NCBI GenBank assembly: GCA_025936045.1
Contig: JAICUB010000010.1
Location: 1-64,000, forward strand
Direction of reading: 5' to 3'
DNA length: 64,000 nucleotides
DNA from: Polyangiaceae bacterium
GTDB taxonomy: Bacteria; Myxococcota_A; Polyangia; Polyangiales; Polyangiaceae
Part shown: positions 44,741 through 54,651 of the stretch, piece by piece
How positions within the stretch are numbered: position 1 is the first letter of the stretch
Layout of the letters: each line of letters opens with the position of its first letter
Notes under the pieces: model-generated
What the model was told of the DNA's origin: nothing
The model's database searches: none
Seen by the model: only the letters and a program-made list of their open reading frames with translations
Program-made: the position numbers and the translations under genes

Positions 44741-46432
44741 ATGGCGCGCCTCCGCAAGCGAGCACCCCTCCGTGCCGGAGCGATCGTTGCGTTCATCGCG
44801 GCGGTTGCTTGTTCCGGCAATGAGCTCGCGCGGACGATCGCGGGGACCGAACCGAAGGCGACACCCTCGCGGGTGATTGCCGTGCCCGCTTCGCCGGACC
44901 GAACGCCGCACGTCGCGGACACGCCGCACGTCGCGGACACGCCGCACGTCGCGGACACGCCGCACGTCGCGGACACGCCGCACGTCGCGGACACGCCGCA
45001 CGTCGCGGACACGCCGCACGTCGCGGACACGCCGCACGTCGCGGACAGCCCGCACGTTGACGGGCAGGTCGTTGCGACGGAGTCGTCGCGGCCGCTCGAC
45101 GCGCCGGCAGCGGACGTGGGGGCGGAACCGAGCGTCGCGTACGAGCCGCCCGAGCTCGTCGCGACCGCGCGTGAAGTCGTCGTCTACGCGGACCCGACGC
45201 GGAGTTCGAAGAAGCTCGGTTACCTGCGCCTCGGCGCGCGCATTCGTCGAGCCGAACGCGCGTCCGGCCACGAAGGCTGCGCGCTCGGCTGGTACCGCGT
45301 CGCGCCCGACGGATTCGTGTGCGTGGGCGCCGCCGCGAGTCTCGACCCCACCCACCCGCTCGCCGAGCTCGCGCACACGCGCCCTGATCGCGACGCCGCG
45401 CTGCCTTACGCCTACGGTCGCTCGAAACCGGTGCCGCCTCCGCTCTACGCGCACTTGCCGACGCGCACCGAAACGGCCGCTCTCGAAGGCACGGCGGCGC
45501 GCAGCCCGACCGGCTTCGCCGATCTCACCCCGCGCCCGTTGCCGGCGCTGCTCGCGGACGGCGGCGCACTGCCGGCGCCGCTCGGCTTCGAACGGCCCGC
45601 CGACCCCGGTACGCCGCGAGCGCTGCCGAACAGCGGCTTCGCGTTGCTCGACGTGCTCGAGCACGAGGGGCGTCGCTTCGGGCTCACGACGGATCTCGAG
45701 CTCGTGCCGCTCGATCGGCTGACGCGCGTCGAGCCGAGCTCGTTTCACGGCGTGGTACTCGACGAGACCACGACGCTGCCGCTCGTCTTCGTACGCAGCC
45801 GGCATGCTTGGCTCCTCACGGGCAGCCCCGAGCACGGCTTCCGGCCGGCGCGGCCGCTCGGCTACCGCGAAGCCGTTTCGCTCGGCGCGCGCAGCGTCAA
45901 AATCGACGGCGTGGGCTACCTCGAGACGCGCGCGGGCGAATGGCTGCGCGACGTGGAGCTCGTGCGCATCGAGGCCGGCGCGAAGCCGCCCGCCGGGGTA
46001 CGCGCCGATCGCACGTGGCTCCACGTGTCGATCGCGGATCAGACGCTCGTCGCCTACGCGGGCATGCGGCCGGTCTACGCGACGCTCGTCTCGACGGGCA
46101 AGGACGGCATGGGCGACCCCGAGACGACGCATTCGACGCCGCGTGGTGAGTTTTTGATTCACACGAAGCACGTCTCCGCCACCATGAGCGGTGACGAGCT
46201 CGGCGACGAGTTCGACCTCCGCGACGTGCCCTACGTCGAATACTTCACGCAGGTCTTCGCCTTTCACGCCGCGTATTGGCACGACGCGTTCGGCGAGCCG
46301 CACAGCCACGGCTGTGTGAACCTGTCGCCGCTCGACGCGCGCTGGCTCTTCCATTTCACCGAGCCGGCGGTGCCGCGGGGCTGGCACGGCGCGTTCTCGC
46401 GCGACGGAACGCTGGTTTCGATCACCCCGTGA
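44741..46432 (+). CDS. L,D-transpeptidase (YkuD) with TPHVAD repeat region
   Basis: A 563-aa exported enzyme and paralogue of the gene at 17854-19365. The N-terminus is hydrophobic with A-V-A-C at about residue 21-24, a poor but possible lipobox. Eight perfect copies of T-P-H-V-A-D (55-102), then S-P-H-V-D, form an extended stalk. An SH3-like region with G-W-Y-R-V and G-F-V-C-V-G follows. The YkuD domain fills about 410-560 with catalytic S-H-G-C-V-N-L (Cys525). The shared middle blocks (H-E-G-R-R-F-G-L-T-T and P-S-S-F-H-G) show the two enzymes arose by duplication. The 3' end overlaps the convergent gene by 11 bp. Confidence 0.9.
   Translation: MARLRKRAPLRAGAIVAFIAAVACSGNELARTIAGTEPKATPSRVIAVPASPDRTPHVADTPHVADTPHVADTPHVADTPHVADTPHVADTPHVADTPHVADSPHVDGQVVATESSRPLDAPAADVGAEPSVAYEPPELVATAREVVVYADPTRSSKKLGYLRLGARIRRAERASGHEGCALGWYRVAPDGFVCVGAAASLDPTHPLAELAHTRPDRDAALPYAYGRSKPVPPPLYAHLPTRTETAALEGTAARSPTGFADLTPRPLPALLADGGALPAPLGFERPADPGTPRALPNSGFALLDVLEHEGRRFGLTTDLELVPLDRLTRVEPSSFHGVVLDETTTLPLVFVRSRHAWLLTGSPEHGFRPARPLGYREAVSLGARSVKIDGVGYLETRAGEWLRDVELVRIEAGAKPPAGVRADRTWLHVSIADQTLVAYAGMRPVYATLVSTGKDGMGDPETTHSTPRGEFLIHTKHVSATMSGDELGDEFDLRDVPYVEYFTQVFAFHAAYWHDAFGEPHSHGCVNLSPLDARWLFHFTEPAVPRGWHGAFSRDGTLVSITP
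44903..45046 (+). repeat. Perfect 18-bp coding minisatellite, eight copies
   Basis: The unit ACGCCGCACGTCGCGGAC is repeated eight times without a single mismatch, followed by a diverged ninth copy from 45047. It encodes T-P-H-V-A-D. Since 18 is a multiple of three, gain or loss of units keeps the frame. Perfect identity, including third codon positions, implies recent expansion or active slippage. Confidence 0.95.
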
Positions 46433-48098
46433 GCAGAGAGCGCGCACGGTCGGCGACGCTGCCCGAGCTCTGCCCCCGCAGTCGCTCGAGCGTCCAGAGC
46501 ACCGGGTAGGCCGCGCCGCCGTCGGTCGTGATGAGCTCGAACCGCAGCGGCCCGGGCGGCGCGTCCGCATTTTCGCTCCAGCGCGCGCCCGCGTTCAAAC
46601 ACAAAACCTCGCCCAGGTAAGCGCCCGTGAGCACCGCAGGGCGCCGCGCCCAACCGCCGCTCGCCTCCGCCGGCAATGCGCTCGCCCCGAGCAGCCCGAG
46701 GTACTGATCGATCGCGGACAGGCTCGCGAGCGAGCGATCGAGCGGCACCTGCACGATGCGCGCGGACCAAGTGCCGAGTACCGAGCTCGGTACGACGCGT
46801 CCGATCAGCTGAAATAGCGAAAAATCCGGCCACGGCGCGGGCGCCCACGCGGAAGGCGGCTCCGGGGGCCGTCGCGGGCGCTCGGGCGTGTCCGGGCTCG
46901 TGCGGCCGGCGCTCGCGGCGACTCGAATCGGGCGACCGTCCATCAGCGCCTGGTGCACGGCGCGCCATGGCTGATACGTCTCGCCGCGGGGGCGTTCGAT
47001 CGTCGCCATATCCGGCTCGGCGAGCCGGCCCTGCCAGCGTCCACCCGACGCCCGCCGCACGCTTTCGCCGACGTACGCGCTCAAGAGTACGGAGAGTGCG
47101 TAGCGCGGACCCCGTTGCGGCCGGCGCGCGAAGAGCGCGAGCGCCGCGTCGAGCCGCGCGAGACTGCCGAGGGACAGGTCGTACGCCGGGAAGTGGCAGG
47201 TGATGGGGGCGGTCGCGAGGAAGTCCGCCGCGTGCTCCGCGATCGTCTCGAGCTCCGGCATGCGCTTCTGCACGAGCTCATCGAGCCGCTTGCCGGCTTG
47301 CTTTTCGAGCGCGGACAACGCGGATTCGACGCGACCCGAGGCGAGATCGAGCTCCACCTGATCCCAGATGCCGCGTCCCGCCGTACTCGGTGGTTCCGGC
47401 TCGAAGCGCGGCATCTCGAGCGACGCGGGGTCGCTCGGCGGCGGCGCCGGCTCGGTCGGCATCTCGGAGCGCGGTGGTTCGAGCGTGCCGAGATCGCGAA
47501 TCACAGCGCGTGGCGCCGCATGTACGATGGGTCCCGGCACGCGCGGGGTTTCGAGCACGGACGGGCGTGTGCGCTGCGCGCCGGGAACCTTCGAAGCCCT
47601 GGGTGACGGCGCCGTCGGAGCGGTAGGCGAGGGAACGCTGATGAGCGGCCCCGGCGCCGGGACACTCACGAGAGGATCGGGCGAGGGGACGCTCGCGAGG
47701 CGGCCGGGGGCCGGCACGCTCGCGGCAGCGCTCGGCGACGCGCTCGTCTTCGACGTGGGGAGAACGCGTCCACTTTGCGGATCGAGCGCGCCGCTCAGCG
47801 TGGGCGCGTGCGCGAGCGCGTGCGCCGCCGCAGCCGGTCGCACCGAGTTGAGATAGTTGCGCGCTTCGGGGAAATCGGGGGCCTCCGCGAGCACGTCGTT
47901 GATGCGTTCGGTGATGGCCGACGCGTCGAGCCGTCCGCGCTGCGCGAGCAGGCGTGTCGTCAGGTAGGCGACACCCGGCCCGAGATCCCGAACCGAACCG
48001 AGGGCGACGAGCTTACGCTGTGCTTCCTCGAAACGTCCGTCGTTGAGGCACGCTTCCACCTCTTGAAGGCGAGGGTCGTCGAGCGGCCCACCGGACAT
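46422..48098 (-). CDS. Large protein of unknown function with Pro-rich linker
   Basis: A 558-aa soluble protein; I recognise no family. Residues 1-90 are helical and resemble a TPR-type unit (V-E-A-C-L-N-D-G-R-F-E-E-A-Q-R-K-L). A Pro/Ser/Ala linker with near-repeats of S-V-P-A-P-G/S-V-P-S-P follows (about 125-235). The C-terminal 310 residues form a globular part with L-S-L-G-S-L-A-R-L-D-A-A-L-A-L-F and W-P-D-F-S-L-F-Q-L-I-G-R-V-V. The segments Y-A-L-S-V-L-L-S-A-Y-V-G-E and L-T-G-A-Y-L-G-E-V-L-C-L-N-A-G-A-R-W look like two copies of one motif. It lies 31 bp downstream of the kinase fusion, yet has its own candidate leaderless promoter. Confidence 0.7.
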   Translation of the reverse strand: MSGGPLDDPRLQEVEACLNDGRFEEAQRKLVALGSVRDLGPGVAYLTTRLLAQRGRLDASAITERINDVLAEAPDFPEARNYLNSVRPAAAAHALAHAPTLSGALDPQSGRVLPTSKTSASPSAAASVPAPGRLASVPSPDPLVSVPAPGPLISVPSPTAPTAPSPRASKVPGAQRTRPSVLETPRVPGPIVHAAPRAVIRDLGTLEPPRSEMPTEPAPPPSDPASLEMPRFEPEPPSTAGRGIWDQVELDLASGRVESALSALEKQAGKRLDELVQKRMPELETIAEHAADFLATAPITCHFPAYDLSLGSLARLDAALALFARRPQRGPRYALSVLLSAYVGESVRRASGGRWQGRLAEPDMATIERPRGETYQPWRAVHQALMDGRPIRVAASAGRTSPDTPERPRRPPEPPSAWAPAPWPDFSLFQLIGRVVPSSVLGTWSARIVQVPLDRSLASLSAIDQYLGLLGASALPAEASGGWARRPAVLTGAYLGEVLCLNAGARWSENADAPPGPLRFELITTDGGAAYPVLWTLERLRGQSSGSVADRARSLLTG

Positions 48099-48104
48099 GA
48101 AATC

Positions 48105-48110
48105 AATCTA
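48105..48110 (-). promoter_or_regulatory. Candidate -10 hexamer for the leaderless gene ending at 46422
   Basis: TAGATT (minus strand) ends six bases before the ATG at 48098, within the 31-bp gap after the kinase-fusion gene. This suggests that the downstream gene can be expressed independently of the MNIO locus. Confidence 0.4.
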
Positions 48111-48129
48111 GCCTGACTCGAGCGCTCTT

Positions 48130-51069
48130 TCACAGATCCGCCACGCAGCGGAAGCCTATGCCGTAGGAAAACGCCGTCGGAGCTTGCGCATAACGGAACG
48201 AAGGCCTGAGCCAGGTCGTATAGCTGCCGTTCCAGGCGCCGCCGCGGATCACCTTCTTGTCGCCGGTGTCGGGGCCCTTGGGGTTGAGCTTCGCGTCGGC
48301 GGTGTAGGGGGCGTAAAAGTCCGAGACCCACTCCCAGACGTTGCCGGCAACGTCGTAGGGGCCGAAGCGTGAGCGGCCGGCCTCGAACTTTCCGACGGGC
48401 GCGGTGGTCGGGTAGCCGTCGTCTTCCGGGTAAAGGGCCGTCAAGGCGCTGCCGTGCTTTTGCCCCCAGGCGACGCACTCGGTGCCGCACGCATTCAGGT
48501 GTTTGGCGGTCGGCGCTTCGTCACCCCAAGGGTAGATTCGTCCGTCGGGGCCGCGCGTCGCGTACTCCCATTCGGCCTCCGTCGGGAGCCGCTTGCCCTG
48601 CGCCTTGCAATACGTCTCCGCCATCTCGAAGCTGACGCAGTTGATGGGGTGATCCTCCATGCCCTCTTTGCCGAAGGTGCAGAGCGGCGAGTAGAGCTTG
48701 CGATCCGCGGGCGTGATGCTCGGCCACTCGACTTCGTTCGAGGCTCGCCGGCACTTGCCGACGTCGGAGCACGTTTTGTATTCCTTCGCGGTGGTCTCGT
48801 AGAGATCCATGCAGAAGGCGTTCAAGGTCACGTTGTGCGAGGGCTTCTCGTTCGCGGCCGCGTCTTTCGCATCCGAGCCCTGAAAATATTGGCCCGCTGG
48901 AATTTTGGCGGTGCGCTCCGGGCAGCTCGGCGCCGCGGGCGCTGCCGACGCGCTCGGAGCCGGCGCGCTGGCGACGACGGGCGCCGCACTCGCGACGGGT
49001 GCGGCTCCGGGGGCGCTCGGACCGGAGCCGTGGCCGCCACCGCGGAGCCCGATGGCGGCGGCCGCGGCGACGCCGAGCGCGACGACCCCGCCGACCACGA
49101 GACCGAGCTTGGACTTCGCTTCGGCGGGTCGAGGTTCCGTCGTCGCGGCGCCGTCGCCCGTCGTGCTCGCCGCGGGGCGAACCAGCGACGGAGGCGCGAG
49201 CTCCGTCGGCGCGGTGGTGGCGCGCACGGAAGGCGTGGCACCCCGCGAACCTGCCGGGCTCGCGACGCCGAGCGCGTGTTCGAACGCCCCCCAGAACTCT
49301 CCCGCTCGCGCAAAGCGCTCTTCCGGCTTTACCGAGAGCGCGCGCTGGAACACCGCTTCCACCGCGTCCGGCAGCGCGACGCCGAGCGTGCGCGGCGTAG
49401 GGCGACGCTCGGGATTCCCCGCCGCGAAGCCGAGTTGCACGAGATCTTCGCCGTCGAGCGCGACTTTGCCGGAGAGCATTTCGACGGCGACGAGCGCGAG
49501 GGCGAACACGTCCGTCCAGGGGCCGGTGGCGCCGTAGGTGCGGCTGAATTGCTCCGGCGCGCCGTACTGCGGGGTGAACGACGTGACGCCCATACCCGTC
49601 TTCGCGAGCGCCGCCTTGAGCTGCGTGTTGTCGCTCATCATCTTGGCGACGCCGAAATCCAGCACCTTGACGGCGGACTTCGGGTTCCGGCCGCCCGCGC
49701 CCGCGCCGAGCACGAAGAGATTCGGCGGCTTGATGTCGCGATGGGCGATGCCTTTGCCGTGCGCGACATCGAGCGCCGCGGCGACCTGGCCGAGCAGCGC
49801 GTGCACTTCCGCGAGCGTCCACGGCGCGCGCCCTTCTCGCCTCTCCCGGTCGAGGAGCTCGTCGAGCGCGAGACCCTCGAGCCACTCGAGGACCATGAAT
49901 GGCATCCACTGACCGTCGGGCGACGTGTACGTCCCCACGTCACGCGCCTGCACGATGGCGGCCGTATGACTCGAGAGCTCGGTGAGGAGCGCGCCTTCCT
50001 GGATGAACGCCTGCTGGAACTCCGAGCGCTGATCGACGGGAGCGGACGAGAGGCCATTGAAGAACTTGATGGCGACCGGCTTGTTCCAGATGGTGTGAAC
50101 CGCCCGGTACACGACCGCGAAGCCGCCCTCGCCGACGAGCTTTTCGACGCGGTACTTCTCGGCGACGAGCGTGCCGACGATGCCGATGGGGTCACGAAGC
50201 TCATGGGGTTCCTTGTCGCGGCCGAATCCGGCCATGTTCGAGCTTTCTCCGGGCGCTCGCAAGCGCTCGCTGGCCGTCCCAAAGGCGCCGGCCGGTCCGA
50301 GCACGACCCCGCGTTCGGCCAGATCGGCGAGCAAGCGCGCCGTTCCGTCGAGAGCCGACGCCGGCTCGTGCTGCGTCTCGCTGCAGGCGCCGAGCACGGC
50401 TTCTTCGAGCGACGCGCCGGCGATCAGGCGCTCGAGGAGCGCGGCGGCAAGCGGCGTCAGCTCGAGGTAGCGCACGTCGTGCTCCGGATCACGGTACACG
50501 AGGAGCCGTGTCGGCACGGCGTCGGGCGGGGTGCGGTCCGCCTCGTCCGCGCTCAGGCGGTGTACGGCGAACGCGTAGCGAACGACGCGCGCCGCTTCGA
50601 CGAAGCGGAGTCCCCGCGTGAGCTCGAGCTCCCCGAGCGGCGCCGCCAGCGTGCGTTCGCGCAGCGAGGACACGACGATCTGCACGGCTTCGTGCCGCGC
50701 GAGCTCGAGCGCCCAGGCCGGTACGCGCGGATCCGCGGCCCAGAGCGGCGCGCAATAGTCCAAGAGCTCGCCCGTCACGTCGCGGAGGTAGTGCGTCGTG
50801 GGGCCGTGCTCGTGGAGGAAGCGCGCGAAATATTCGTCGAAGAGCGCGCCGAGGCGCGCGATCGTCCGCGGGATCGCGAGGGCGACGGCGTCGCGCAACG
50901 TGCCCTGGACGAGCTCGCGGTAGACGAGCCAGCGCTCGAACTCCGCTGCGAGCGCGGCGCTGTCCTCGGCGGCGAGCCCGTGGCGCGCCGAGAGCGCGTC
51001 GAGGTCGCTCGCGCCGAGCGGCGGTCCGAGCACGAGCTCGGCGAGCGCTCGCTCAAGCGCCGATTGCAC
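48130..51069 (-). CDS. Fusion of DUF2063-like MNIO partner, Ser/Thr kinase and FGE-like domain
   Basis: A 979-aa protein. Residues 1-260 resemble the DUF2063/HvfC-BufC partner of MNIO enzymes: W-L-V-Y-R-E-L-V near 47-54, then P-R-T and a G-x-L-F-D segment, T-T-H-Y-L-R-D-V (91-98), and a second part with L-L-V-Y-R-D (189-194) and L-T-P-L-A-A-A-L-L-E-R-L-I-A-G-A-S-L-E-E-A. A kinase (about 305-600) follows with V-G-E-G-G-F-A-V-V-Y, Lys335, H-R-D-I-K-P-P-N (Asp445) and D-F-G (471-473). A membrane segment lies at about 654-675, then an FGE/sulfatase-modifying-factor-like domain (715-979; R-L-P-T-E-A-E-W-E-Y, N-V-W-E-W, R-G-G-A-W). The start overlaps the MNIO gene by 17 bp. An internal ATG at 50235 (Met279) has GGAGAAAG upstream and would give a 701-aa kinase-FGE. 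Confidence 0.88.
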   Translation of the reverse strand: MQSALERALAELVLGPPLGASDLDALSARHGLAAEDSAALAAEFERWLVYRELVQGTLRDAVALAIPRTIARLGALFDEYFARFLHEHGPTTHYLRDVTGELLDYCAPLWAADPRVPAWALELARHEAVQIVVSSLRERTLAAPLGELELTRGLRFVEAARVVRYAFAVHRLSADEADRTPPDAVPTRLLVYRDPEHDVRYLELTPLAAALLERLIAGASLEEAVLGACSETQHEPASALDGTARLLADLAERGVVLGPAGAFGTASERLRAPGESSNMAGFGRDKEPHELRDPIGIVGTLVAEKYRVEKLVGEGGFAVVYRAVHTIWNKPVAIKFFNGLSSAPVDQRSEFQQAFIQEGALLTELSSHTAAIVQARDVGTYTSPDGQWMPFMVLEWLEGLALDELLDRERREGRAPWTLAEVHALLGQVAAALDVAHGKGIAHRDIKPPNLFVLGAGAGGRNPKSAVKVLDFGVAKMMSDNTQLKAALAKTGMGVTSFTPQYGAPEQFSRTYGATGPWTDVFALALVAVEMLSGKVALDGEDLVQLGFAAGNPERRPTPRTLGVALPDAVEAVFQRALSVKPEERFARAGEFWGAFEHALGVASPAGSRGATPSVRATTAPTELAPPSLVRPAASTTGDGAATTEPRPAEAKSKLGLVVGGVVALGVAAAAAIGLRGGGHGSGPSAPGAAPVASAAPVVASAPAPSASAAPAAPSCPERTAKIPAGQYFQGSDAKDAAANEKPSHNVTLNAFCMDLYETTAKEYKTCSDVGKCRRASNEVEWPSITPADRKLYSPLCTFGKEGMEDHPINCVSFEMAETYCKAQGKRLPTEAEWEYATRGPDGRIYPWGDEAPTAKHLNACGTECVAWGQKHGSALTALYPEDDGYPTTAPVGKFEAGRSRFGPYDVAGNVWEWVSDFYAPYTADAKLNPKGPDTGDKKVIRGGAWNGSYTTWLRPSFRYAQAPTAFSYGIGFRCVADL
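50245..50251 (-). promoter_or_regulatory. Internal ribosome binding site before Met279 of the kinase fusion
   Basis: On the minus strand CGGAGAA precedes an in-frame ATG (50235-50233) by nine bases. This ATG lies exactly at the junction between the DUF2063-like part and the kinase. It is stronger than the ribosome sites of most starts in this window, so two products from one frame are plausible. Confidence 0.5.
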
Positions 51070-51934
51070 CTAGCGCCTCCGGCCGGCCGCCGTGCTCGCC
51101 GAGCGCGCGCTCGACCACGCCGCGCACGGCGCGCACCTCTTCGAGCAGCACGCCGAGCGGCGGGACGTCGTTGTCGCGCTCGAGCAGTACCGGGAGCGGC
51201 CCCGTGCGAGCGAGCGTCGCTGCGAGGAGGTCGAGCACCGGCGCCGCGACCGGCGCGCCGTGCGTGTCGATGAGTAGGCCGGACCGAGCGCGCGTGTGGC
51301 CGGCGACGTGCAGCTCCACCGCGCGTTCGAGGGGGAAGGACGCGAGCGCGGCGTGCGCATCGAAGCCGTGGTTTTGCGCGTTCACGTAGACGTTGTTCAC
51401 GTCGAAGAGCAGCCCCGCGCGTGTGCGTTCGAAGAGCGTGTGCAAAAAGTCGCTCTCGGAGAGCTCGGCGCGGCCCGCGTGCGCGTAATAAGTGACGTTC
51501 TCGATCGCGACGGGGCGAGCGAGCGCCTCCGCGAGCGCCTCGAGCCGGTCGGCGACGCGGTACGCGACGTCACGGCTGAATTTCAGCGGCAAAAGCTCGT
51601 GAAAAACCCGCCCGGCGCCGCTCGTGAGCGCCAGGTGGTCGGAGTGCCACGGCGAGCCGAGCCGCTCGACCTCGGCCGCGAGCTCGGCGACGTAGGCGCG
51701 GTCCGGCACGGCCTGCGCGCCGACCGAGAGCGAGAGCCCGTGCGTGACGAGCGGGTAGCGCCGGCTGATGCGCTCGAGCGCGGCGGGATAGTACCCGCCG
51801 CGGCGCATGTAGTTTTCGGGCGAGACCTCGAAAAACGCCACGTCGACCGTGGGCCCCTCGAGCACCTCCTCCAAAAAATCCCAACGCAGGCCGAGTCCGA
51901 CGCCGCTCGTCAAGGGGCGCGCGGCTCGGTCCAT
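51053..51934 (-). CDS. DUF692 / MNIO-family RiPP-modifying enzyme
   Basis: A 293-aa TIM-barrel iron enzyme of the MbnB/BufB/TglH superfamily (multinuclear non-haem iron-dependent oxidases), which change cysteines of a precursor peptide. The family signature is complete: G-V-G-L-G-L-R, F-F-E-V-S-P-E-N-Y-M (E36, E40), T-H-G-L-S-L-S-V-G (H65), H-S-D-H-L-A (H97, H100), I-E-N-V (E145), F-D-V-N-N-V-Y-V-N-A-x-N-H-G-F-D (D178, N180), E-L-H-V-A-G-H (H209, H213), I-D-T-H-G (D223, H225) and L-E-R-D-N-D (E252). All likely metal ligands are kept, so it should be active. It starts 21 bp after the precursor gene and overlaps the partner-kinase gene by 17 bp. Confidence 0.93.
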   Translation of the reverse strand: MDRAARPLTSGVGLGLRWDFLEEVLEGPTVDVAFFEVSPENYMRRGGYYPAALERISRRYPLVTHGLSLSVGAQAVPDRAYVAELAAEVERLGSPWHSDHLALTSGAGRVFHELLPLKFSRDVAYRVADRLEALAEALARPVAIENVTYYAHAGRAELSESDFLHTLFERTRAGLLFDVNNVYVNAQNHGFDAHAALASFPLERAVELHVAGHTRARSGLLIDTHGAPVAAPVLDLLAATLARTGPLPVLLERDNDVPPLGVLLEEVRAVRGVVERALGEHGGRPEALGAIGA

Positions 51935-51955
51935 CGTCCGTCGGCGCTCCTCGGG

Positions 51956-52306
51956 TCAGCCACAGGTGCCGGGGCCGCAACCGGCTTTGGCACCAGCCGC
52001 CTTCTTCTTGCCGGCGGGCTTCGGCGTGCCCGTGGACTTGTCGGCGGAAGCGGGCGCGGGGGCCGTAGCGTCGCCAGCTACCGGCGCGGGCGCGGCGTCG
52101 GCTGCCGGAGCAGCCGGATTCGCCGGCGTCGCATCCGCCGCGGCGGGAGCGGGAGCCGCTGCGGGCGCCGCGTCGGTCGCGGCGGGGACTTCCTTCGCCT
52201 GGACAGGGCTTTGCGCCGGTTCGGCGGGAGCGCTGCCGCCACAAGCTGCGAGACCGAGCGCTGCGAGCGTCGTGGCGAAGGCCTGAAAATTGAGCTTCTG
52301 ATTCAT
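51956..52306 (-). CDS. Putative RiPP precursor: lipoprotein-type peptide with C-terminal CGPGTCG
   Basis: A 116-residue product; the ATG at 52306 has AGGAG eight bases upstream. It has a signal of the lipoprotein kind (M-N-Q-K-L-N-F, lipobox L-A-A-C, Cys22), an 80-residue Ala/Pro/Asp low-complexity spacer, a basic patch (K-P-A-G-K-K-K) and a C-terminus A-G-C-G-P-G-T-C-G with the only two other Cys (110 and 115). Being immediately followed by a DUF692 gene, and ending in a short C-G-x-x-x-C-G core, it fits the role of MNIO substrate. In characterised systems such Cys become oxazolone/thioamide or similar copper-binding groups. The lipid anchor would leave the modified tail tethered to the membrane. 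The identity as substrate is inferred. Confidence 0.75.
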   Translation of the reverse strand: MNQKLNFQAFATTLAALGLAACGGSAPAEPAQSPVQAKEVPAATDAAPAAAPAPAAADATPANPAAPAADAAPAPVAGDATAPAPASADKSTGTPKPAGKKKAAGAKAGCGPGTCG

Positions 52307-52343
52307 GCGAAGGACTCCTGTCGGAAAAGTCGCGAGCGGCCCG

Positions 52344-52349
52344 AGCATA
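52344..52349 (-). promoter_or_regulatory. Candidate -10 element for the precursor gene
   Basis: TATGCT (minus strand) lies in the 51-bp gap after the YceI-like gene and would give a leader of about 30 bases including the AGGAG ribosome site. No clear -35 element is seen. If used, the precursor could be made in excess over the genes upstream. Confidence 0.3.
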
Positions 52350-52357
52350 GCGCTCTC

Positions 52358-53131
52358 TCAATCCGGGACGAAGGCCAGATCGAAAGTCACCTTTGCTTCG
52401 TTACCTACCTTGTCACCGATGAGGCCAAGGTCCTTCGCGATGGGGACGCCCGAGGCATCACGGGGGGCGATGTCGTGGGTGCTCAGGCTCACTACGAGCG
52501 GCTTCCGGGATCGGATCAAAAGCTCCGCGGGCGGCCCTGCCGGGTCGTCGCCCGGCACGATCGTGAGGGCGACGTCCGCTGTCAGTGGAGCCCGCACGCC
52601 GTGCAACGAGAGCTCGCCGCGCACCGTCCAGCGGCTCTCGAGCTCCCGCCGCGCGGCGCGCCGGTCACCGTTCGGCGCGGCGACGACGTGCCCGGCGTCG
52701 AGCGAGCTGAGAGCGAAGGTGACGTGGCGCTCGAGCTCGCGCTTCTCCGCCGTGACCGCGCGTCCGAGCTCGAGCCATTCGAGCGCGCGCGTGGTGTACG
52801 TCTCGTTCGGCGTTCCGCCTTCGCCCGTCAGCGTGAGCTCGCCGAGATCGAGCGCGACGCTGCCGGTCGTGTGCGACAAATCGTCGAGGTCGACGGCGAG
52901 GTCGCCATGCGGATGCGCGAGCTTGCCGCGCGGCGTGGCGTGCTTCGCCGGCAGCTCGAAGCCGATGTCGGCGCGAGCGAGCTTGTAATGGAGCCGCCGG
53001 AGCGCCGCGGGTGCGTTCGACGAAGACGGACTCGCGGACGCGGGCCAGGGCGCAGTGCGTTCCGGCTTCGGCGGCGCACGGTGGCAGGCCGCCGCGGCGA
53101 CGGCGAGAAGAACGGGCGCGAGCTCTTTCAA
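52358..53131 (-). CDS. YceI-like lipoprotein
   Basis: A 257-aa exported protein starting at TTG, where the start overlaps the stop of the previous gene (TTGA). The signal (K-E-L-A-P-V-L-L-A-V-A-A-A-A-C) ends in a lipobox-like A-A-A-C. The mature part is a YceI-type beta-barrel that usually binds a polyprenyl or other apolar ligand: D-L-A-V-D-L-D-D-L near the middle, a strand R-H-V-T-F-A-L-S-S-L, and the diagnostic G-E-L-S-L-H-G-V-R-A-P-L-T-A-D-V-A-L. A frame open further upstream is not needed. It is co-expressed with the FadL-like gene and lies just before the putative RiPP precursor. Confidence 0.78.
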   Translation of the reverse strand: MKELAPVLLAVAAAACHRAPPKPERTAPWPASASPSSSNAPAALRRLHYKLARADIGFELPAKHATPRGKLAHPHGDLAVDLDDLSHTTGSVALDLGELTLTGEGGTPNETYTTRALEWLELGRAVTAEKRELERHVTFALSSLDAGHVVAAPNGDRRAARRELESRWTVRGELSLHGVRAPLTADVALTIVPGDDPAGPPAELLIRSRKPLVVSLSTHDIAPRDASGVPIAKDLGLIGDKVGNEAKVTFDLAFVPD

Positions 53132-54651
53132 TGCCAGACTCCGATCGCGAGACCCCAGCCGAGGTAGTCTCGCGCCACGTCGAGCGAGCCGCCGAGCCAC
53201 CACCAATTTTCCTGCGGAAATGTCCCGAAGACGTCCCACGGCAAAAGGCGCGCTTGCCCGCCGAACGTGACGTGGCTTCGGCCGCCGTCCTCGTTCGAGC
53301 GAAAGCGCGTAGGTTCGAAGTAGACGCCCGCGCGCGCCTGGAGCCAGTTGGGAATCGGCTCGACCTCGACGCCGAGCCGCGGTGAGAGCGTGATCTGCTG
53401 ACCGGAGCGCTGCAGCTCGCGGTTCAAGAAGCCTTCGATGCCGACGCCGTCCGCCACGGCGCCCGTCATCAAGAACGAGCTCGTGAGCAGGACGTGAAAG
53501 CGCGGCAGCGCGGCGGCCCGCCGCCGTAACTCACGATCGACTTCGCGTTCGGCGCGCTCGAGCTCGGCGTGATCGAGCGCCGCTTCCGCCGTGTCCGCCG
53601 CCTTGAGGACGCGCTCGAGCTCGACCGTGTCGTGCCCCTCCCGCCGGGCGTCGGCGAGCGCCTCGCGCGTCCTCCGCTCACGTTCACGGGCCTGCCAAGC
53701 GAGGTAACGCCGCTTGTGCGCGAGGAGCTCCGCCGGGCTCACCCAGCGTGGATTGAGCGGCCGCCGCCCGAGCTGCACCGCGGCACCGAAGCTCAAATCC
53801 CACGGAACGGTGAGGCGGTTCGGCAAGTAGAGCTCGTCCGCGGTGCCGCGATAGATGACGCCGCCCGGCGTGTCGGCGTTCACTTCGGAACGAAAGGCCG
53901 CGCCGACGCGCACGCGCTCGCCGTTGGGGCGCCAGACGAAGCCGAGCTCGAGGCCGGCGCCGCGCGTATTGAAGGTGTCGACGCCGCTGCTCAAGAAGGT
54001 GGCGCGCGTGCTCACGTCGAGCGCCACGACCCGCGCGCCGACGCCGAATACGAACTGGTCGTCCGCGAACGCGTAGGCCGCGAGCAGGTGGTTTTGCATG
54101 ATTTGACCGGTGAGTGACGTTGTCGTGCCGGTCAGGTCGAGTAGGCCGCGGCGTTGTGGGGCGCTCGGCTCGTCGCGGCGCAGGCTGTATTGCTGGAGAT
54201 CGGCCGTCACGCCGAAGCCCCAATGGTTGATCTGCAGGTTGAACCCGCCGTTCAGAAAGACGTAGAGGTTGTTGCCTGCGACGACCTTGGTGCGGCTCCC
54301 GGAGTTGAAGAAGTCCCCCGAGCGCCCCAAACTGCCTGGAAATGAGAGGCTCGCGCTGAGGTCGAAGTCGACGTCGGTATAGGAGAAGGGGACGCGCACC
54401 GCGGGCGAGGCGGGGTTCTGCGTGTCCCCGTCGATGCCGTCCGCCATCGCGACGAAGGCGCCCGCGAGGCCGACCACGCGGCTGCCCGCGAGCACCGGCC
54501 CTTGGTATAGGTCAATCGTGTAGTCGTTCGTGCGGAGCGGAGCGGGCGCGGCCGCCGGTGGCTGCGCCAAGGCCGGGGTAACCACGAGCACGCCGCAAAG
54601 TCCGAGACTTTTTCGCCACGAGCGGCCCGAGCGCATGCGCGCGCCTACCAT
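53128..54651 (-). CDS. FadL/OmpP1-like outer-membrane protein with internal coiled coil
   Basis: A 507-aa exported protein. An N-terminal signal ends near A-L-A-Q; the ATG at 54651 or the one at 54636 may be used. The start of the mature part, G-S-R-V-V-G-L-A-G-A-F-V-A-M-A-D-G-I-D-G-D-T-x-N-P-A, is the plug/hatch motif of the FadL/TodX transporters of hydrophobic compounds. Amphipathic strands follow to the C-terminus. A charged helix of about 70 residues (about 308-385, rich in Arg, Glu and Ala) interrupts the barrel and would form a coiled coil in a loop or in the periplasm. The gene is coupled to the YceI-like lipoprotein. Confidence 0.75.
   Translation of the reverse strand: MVGARMRSGRSWRKSLGLCGVLVVTPALAQPPAAAPAPLRTNDYTIDLYQGPVLAGSRVVGLAGAFVAMADGIDGDTQNPASPAVRVPFSYTDVDFDLSASLSFPGSLGRSGDFFNSGSRTKVVAGNNLYVFLNGGFNLQINHWGFGVTADLQQYSLRRDEPSAPQRRGLLDLTGTTTSLTGQIMQNHLLAAYAFADDQFVFGVGARVVALDVSTRATFLSSGVDTFNTRGAGLELGFVWRPNGERVRVGAAFRSEVNADTPGGVIYRGTADELYLPNRLTVPWDLSFGAAVQLGRRPLNPRWVSPAELLAHKRRYLAWQARERERRTREALADARREGHDTVELERVLKAADTAEAALDHAELERAEREVDRELRRRAAALPRFHVLLTSSFLMTGAVADGVGIEGFLNRELQRSGQQITLSPRLGVEVEPIPNWLQARAGVYFEPTRFRSNEDGGRSHVTFGGQARLLPWDVFGTFPQENWWWLGGSLDVARDYLGWGLAIGVWH

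Follow-up and report, generated by a model that had tools for sequence, protein, structure and literature searches.

A candidate MNIO peptide pathway of Myxococcota with a Cys-tailed lipoprotein precursor and a recurring kinase-SUMF1 neighbour

A 64,000-nucleotide stretch of a Polyangiaceae genome (contig JAICUB010000010.1 of assembly GCA_025936045.1; hereafter, the window) carries on its minus strand a short lipoprotein gene with a Cys-containing tail, a gene for an MNIO enzyme of the DUF692 family, and a gene beginning with an HvfC-type partner domain. We read this locus as probably a Myxococcota variant of the MNIO-PME1 pathways for ribosomally synthesized and post-translationally modified peptides (RiPPs), akin to the oxazolin/HvfA-like systems and the captophorins, with a Ser/Thr kinase bearing a SUMF1-like domain as part of its neighbourhood. 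Gene order, domains, motif conservation and a reading-frame junction are direct observations on the DNA. The assignment to a RiPP pathway is well supported by conservation, while the chemistry is a prediction. An initial annotation had proposed that this is an MNIO RiPP-type locus whose precursor is lipid-anchored and Cys-tailed and whose partner is of DUF2063 type, and the comparisons reported here support that proposal.

The precursor gene (51956..52306, minus strand) encodes a lipoprotein-type protein of 116 amino acids (aa), with a signal MNQKLNFQAFATTLAALGLAAC, an Ala/Pro-rich spacer and the tail CGPGTCG, the ending that the initial annotation had described. The probable start codon is the ATG at 52306, preceded by AGGAG, which places the Cys residues at positions 22, 110 and 115. 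As expected of a RiPP lipoprotein, it appears to have a lipobox signal: the motif LAAC, assigned by motif alone, predicts lipidation at Cys22 (codon 52241..52243), a Cys found in 20 of 20 aligned precursors (the window and 19 relatives). The same alignment keeps E39, C110, G111, G113 and C115 as well, and a variable Ala/Pro-rich stretch separates signal from tail throughout. From this conservation of the tail, CGPGTCG (51959..51979) is the predicted modification site, through C110 and C115.

The MNIO gene (51053..51934, minus strand; 293 aa) starts 21 bp after the precursor gene, the spacing noted earlier, and its product matches PF05114 at 289 bits (cut-off, 25). Its best named neighbours are BufB (NF050167, 264 bits against an equivalog cut-off of 310) and HvfB (NF003818, 252 bits against 360), and it falls below both cut-offs. 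The protein can be aligned with PDB entry 3BWW, TglH and MbnB. Twelve residues (H65, H97, H100, H112, E145, D178, N181, H209, D223, H225, E252 and D254) do not vary among the 21 aligned MNIOs, in agreement with the initial claim that the likely metal ligands are present; by a mapping read from the 3BWW alignment, they include the equivalents of HvfB N175/D242/H244 and FonB D249. Which residue serves which iron is in part our presumption.

The next open reading frame (ORF; P0002, 48130-51069, 979 aa) overlaps the MNIO gene by 17 bp. Its first 262 residues (50284..51069, minus strand) form a DUF2063-like helical domain followed by an RRE-type domain, the composition of PME-type-1 or HvfC partners. 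The region matches NGO1945_C (PF22106) at 66 bits (cut-off, 27), falls just below the cut-off of DUF2063 (PF09836; 26.4 against 27.2 bits) and does not reach that of the HvfC equivalog (NF050145; 109 against 142). An AlphaFold2 (AF2) model built from 32 sequences has a pLDDT of 95, and Foldseek matched it to 3dee (NGO1945; E, 6.9e-7) and TglI (1.9e-6), with no other PDB match at E ≤0.001. The DUF2063 resemblance that had been noticed over the first 260 or so residues is thereby borne out, and the profile search that had been suggested succeeded for DUF692 and NGO1945_C, narrowly missed for DUF2063 and matched no precursor family. PME-type-1 partners are described as stand-alone proteins within a narrow size range of about 250-260 aa (PMC12452194). 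At 979 aa the window ORF departs from this description, and the relatives compared have a separate partner gene.

To ask how widely the precursor accompanies the enzyme, we searched 59 genomes for MNIOs and found a match in 48. The precursor test required a lipobox protein in which C-[GASK]-x-[GAN]-x-C lies close to the end, encoded by a gene ending no more than 400 nt before the MNIO. Among 39 loci, a set distinct from L065-L069, which belong to another MNIO group (L numbers denote loci, G numbers genomes), 32 have such a protein directly before the MNIO, which makes the window protein a credible precursor. A scan of genome contigs added 69 further non-duplicate MNIO loci, other phyla included; 25 pass the same test, and several of the others carry EGKCG or GSCG repeats. 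When the tail was searched as a DNA pattern in the 59 genomes, 15 of 51 hits lay upstream of an MNIO and at most 400 bp from it, against a roughly estimated expectation of about 0.005. The neighbourhood comparison across Myxococcota upholds the Cys-tailed lipobox protein before the MNIO, and not the kinase fusion, which was seen in this assembly only.

Beyond the partner domain, P0002 contains, all on the minus strand, a Ser/Thr kinase domain (residues 306-540; 49450..50154; PF00069, 104 bits) with VAIK, HRDIK and DFG motifs, a predicted transmembrane segment (residues about 655-675; 49045..49107; hydropathy maximum, 2.43) and a predicted periplasmic domain related to SUMF1 and formylglycine-generating enzyme (FGE) (residues 721-976; 48142..48909; PF03781, 174 bits). 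The initial annotation had recognized the kinase and missed the domain beyond the membrane segment. Kinase-SUMF1 genes, sought with the SUMF1 domain at E 1e-50, occupy 56 places in 36 of the 59 genomes. Of these places, 19, each in a different genome, are no more than 6 kb from an MNIO, compared with 0.19 expected at random; one further place lies 14 kb away (G026). The kinase gene follows HvfC in 15 genomes, precedes a precursor-MNIO-HvfC series in three (G043, G050 and G056, the last truncated where its contig stops) and diverges from the MNIO cluster in one (G018). The same pairing occurs on eleven further contigs, counting L075/L185 and L081/L183, pairs of equal length, as one each (the others are L076, L079, L086, L088, L093, L100, L107, L174 and L184); they include Sorangium cellulosum So ceGT47 (L086, about 5 kb apart), Polyangium (L088 and L093) and Minicystis rosea (L107). 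By gene neighbourhood, then, the conserved feature is a separate kinase-SUMF1 gene next to the MNIO, in three gene orders. The tie to phosphosignalling that had been suggested persists in this weaker form and not by way of a conserved fusion. We found no report in the open-licence literature of a kinase tied to MNIO-type clusters, and the texts of PMC12452194, PMC12636315 and PMC13097082 make no use of the word kinase.

Within the window, HvfC and kinase are joined at 50193..50205 (minus strand). In the nearest relative (G004, whose MNIO shares 76% identity with that of the window), HvfC and kinase genes overlap; aligned at this overlap, the window lacks one base, and HvfC and kinase therefore share a frame. 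A stop separates them in 14 of 14 relatives compared that have both genes (with a gap of 1.5 kb in L051). Across 240 genomes of the class we counted 100 HvfC places in 90 genomes, and only the window place is fused to a kinase, a count in which the frames longer than 700 aa (nine besides the window) were opened; none of the nine has a kinase in the HvfC frame, and eight hold MNIO and HvfC in a single frame. With 14 of 14 relatives separate and one place in 100 fused, we rejected a kinase-partner fusion as a conserved feature of the system. The earlier statement that the partner is part of a membrane Ser/Thr kinase holds for this assembly and not for the relatives compared.

As for the origin of the fusion, we lean towards a real and recent one-base deletion. 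It is nevertheless quite possible that a single base was lost in sequencing or assembly and that the two genes overlap in the living cell as they do in G004. The stop kept in every relative compared points that way, as does the loss of exactly one base where the kinase begins (M[ST]..DP in relatives), in a fragmented assembly (6.37 Mb in 87 contigs, the window on contig 47; 86.6% complete, 4.29% contamination). Such an error would, however, be an isolated one: 33 ORFs orthologous between the window and G004 (14,444 codons in the alignments, with a double count where pieces overlap) have no other frame break. Nothing steers errors to a gene boundary, and a real deletion there would be tolerated by selection. 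Separately, MNIO and HvfC matches share a single open frame in ten non-duplicate loci (L038/L074, L100, L174 and L176-L182), so that MNIO-partner fusions recur in the class.

For modification, lipidation, metal binding and the role of the kinase, we infer the following course. In the cytoplasm, the MNIO and its HvfC partner would oxidise both Cys in the CGPGTCG tail, with 5-thiooxazole-type groups as the most likely product (a predicted change of -4 Da for each Cys). The peptide would then be exported via Sec and lipidated at Cys22, and its modified tail would be displayed at the membrane on the flexible Ala/Pro-rich arm, to bind copper or some similar metal there. The membrane kinase, through its periplasmic SUMF1-like domain, would probably read the state of the exported peptide or of the metal, and in this genome a one-base deletion would have merged the HvfC and kinase frames. 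We also offer, tentatively and as rather unlikely, a stronger proposal, in which the kinase-SUMF1 protein is a dedicated receptor of the lipid-anchored MNIO peptide: its outer domain would read the modified or metal-loaded tail and its kinase report inward, possibly controlling maturation as well via HvfC, with which it is physically joined in this genome.

Related systems are known, and peptides of this kind have recently been connected with copper binding. The oxazolins (HvfA-HvfB-HvfC) and the captophorins, 5-thiooxazole metallophores defined in PMC13097082 and represented by fontiphorin (FonABC), likewise have an exported Cys-Gly precursor, an MNIO and a DUF2063-RRE partner in the order A-B-C, and Myxococcota relatives carry EGSCG repeats near the EGKCG of oxazolins. 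The FonBC product is a 5-thiooxazole, and these enzymes tolerate Thr ahead of Cys and either Gly or Ala behind it (PMC13097082). The window differs in its single C-terminal CGPGTCG without Lys-Cys, its long Ala/Pro spacer, two MNIO positions considered below, the lack of any precursor-model match and the kinase-SUMF1 neighbour. The lipid anchor, which the initial annotation had thought unusual, has precedent, both lipidated MNIO peptides and precursors with CxxxxC having been published: lipidation of DybA and NedA was shown experimentally, and a lipoprotein CxxxxC group ('Cluster X') was predicted (PMC12636315). These systems, too, place a lipobox precursor beside an MNIO; NedA (EGKCG) is modified with -4 Da per motif by an MNIO plus partner (PMC12636315). 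Precursors with signal peptides are also known for Buf_EGKCG/oxazolins and for the CxxxxC family, whose clusters have MNIO and DUF2063 genes and, in 54% of cases, a Lactamase_B_2 gene (PMC12452194). Compared by description, the CxxxxC family and Cluster X agree with the window tail only in the C-x4-C spacing (C-GPGT-C). Lipoprotein signals occur in about 16% of Buf2 bufferins (PMC12452194); the window precursor, unlike these, lacks Cys-Lys repeats and carries two Cys in its tail. Membership of the precursor in HvfA, BufA1 or BufA2 was rejected by profile scores. The kinase-SUMF1 protein shares its kinase, membrane segment and SUMF1-like outer domain with the myxobacterial receptor-type (FGE-sulfatase) kinases, whose homologues elsewhere in the genomes are not adjacent to an MNIO, in contrast to the subfamily found here. 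Further background on MNIO pathways is given in PMC13419390.

Several observations weigh against the pathway as we read it. MNIO genes lacking the Cys-tailed gene, which had been named in advance as contrary evidence, are found by motif in 7 of the 39 loci (L043, L046, L054, L057, L059, L060 and L061), although three of these (L043, ending SCGEDNCG, L060 and L061) retain related Cys motifs. The tail pattern alone is not enriched in the 59 genomes (51 hits against 78 for a reversed-pattern control), and because of this the evidence lies in its place before MNIOs and not in the pattern itself. None of the precursor models in Pfam or NCBIfam matches the window protein, and one of 20 precursor relatives reaches HvfA at E 0.01 or better (E, 0.0026). 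Arg16 and Phe250 shape substrate choice in FonB (PMC13097082); the window MNIO has W18 and N255 at these positions, where the 21 aligned MNIOs have W in 19 and F in two, and N, H, Q or S but never Phe, respectively. Specificity, and perhaps product, may therefore differ from FonB, and the two residues fit a tail without Lys-Cys. FonBC refuses Pro at some substrate positions (PMC13097082), and the window tail contains Pro; a related pathway, mmr of Microbulbifer, gave no copper response (PMC12538549). As for the kinase, 37 of the 56 kinase-SUMF1 places are away from any MNIO, many MNIO-tail loci lack such a kinase in their vicinity, and linked and unlinked kinases are mixed in a tree of 35 kinases, in which the linked ones do not form one group; linkage takes three changes on this tree, and none of 500 shuffles was as low.

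These points bear on how far the kinase and the lipoprotein belong to the pathway. It is possible, and we give the idea real though minority weight, that the locus is a lipidated oxazolin/captophorin-type one beside which the kinase is a bystander retained by local synteny with no functional tie. The kinase-less MNIO-tail loci fit that idea, the flanking genes and indeed 50 kb around the window are likewise syntenic (the latter with G004), and genes of this sort abound in myxobacterial genomes, that of Minicystis rosea encoding 360 protein kinases and 69 proteins of the FGE-sulfatase type (PMC8436480). Simple inherited synteny would not, however, place the same kinase subfamily by an MNIO in three gene orders and two families. 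Improbable, in our view, is that the Cys-tailed protein is an unmodified metal-binding lipoprotein of the operon and not an MNIO substrate. Lipoproteins of the same kind do occur in fetched 10-kb stretches that contain no MNIO match (L171:4853-5305 and L172:5010-5288), yet 32 of 39 loci place the tail protein directly before the MNIO, the L172 protein, a Myxococcota relative, scores 25.9 bits on the HvfA domain model of NCBIfam (cut-off, 19.5), and bufferins, too, are reported to have lone precursor genes (PMC12452194). We consider it very improbable that the SUMF1 domain is a working FGE altering the tail Cys after export. Its PF03781 score is high and its best PDB matches are FGEs. The active-site Cys pair of human FGE (MCHRSYC), which has a copper role, is nonetheless missing from the corresponding stretch of the window kinase and of 35 of 35 related kinases, and we rejected a catalytic FGE on this ground; the AF2 model of the domain is poor (pLDDT, 66.9). 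The kinase itself keeps its active motifs (VAIK Lys, HRD and DFG) in all 35, a set made up without cut-off genes (L056/L096 and L076) and many unlinked kinase-SUMF1 places. The MNIO RiPP pathway with a kinase-SUMF1 neighbour remains the reading we prefer.

The wider gene unit runs, all on the minus strand, from P0005 through a YceI-like lipoprotein, the precursor, the MNIO and the HvfC-kinase ORF to P0001, with successive gaps of -4, 51, 21, -17 and 31 bp, and we therefore read it as a single tight unit. Named close homologues are from Polyangia/Myxococcota, and in many relatives P0005, the YceI-like lipoprotein and P0001 are kept next to the cluster. P0005 (53128..54651; 507 aa) is uncharacterised, with zero Pfam matches at E 1. 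The YceI-like lipoprotein gene (52358..53131; PF04264, 24.7 bits against a cut-off of 23.7) has a TTG start and overlaps the P0005 stop; it adjoins the cluster also in kinase-less loci such as L047, L050 and L059. The downstream neighbour, P0001 (46422..48098; 558 aa), is likewise uncharacterised, with zero Pfam or NCBIfam matches at E 1, and phospho-motif repeats sought in its relatives were not conserved.

Other MNIO arrangements came up in the comparison. The second MNIO of the same genome (L065, about 4650-6930 on contig C2) comes after a lipobox protein with Cys-Lys repeats, which resembles Buf2 precursors in this respect and weakly matches BufA2 (19.5 bits against a cut-off of 60), and is followed by a protein that reads like an HvfC type; this region is a probable Buf2-like cluster. 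Holophagaceae/Geothrix MNIOs (L114-L116, L119, L120, L123, L128, L150 and L152) are preceded by proteins with GSCGKGSCGSKD repeats. HvfC is convergent to the MNIO in four non-duplicate loci (L048/L095, L049/L083, L097 and L118), with another kinase gene, only about 30% identical, on the HvfC strand; since these genomes are rich in kinases, that pairing may be chance.

MNIO peptides are a fast-growing RiPP class, and a kinase gene recurring by the MNIO offers a concrete candidate for their sensing and control in Myxococcota, outside the sigma-factor bufferin clusters. The fused protein of this assembly is an oddity of the genome or of the assembly, not to be taken as a rule. For a specialist, the surprise would lie in the recurrence of the kinase-SUMF1 neighbour, which lends itself to tests in cultured relatives. 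The tail, compact and with two Cys on a lipid-anchored arm, moreover makes a simple substrate for mass spectrometry. Should the kinase prove to be a receptor for this tail, the locus would represent a RiPP made for sensing by the producer's own kinase.

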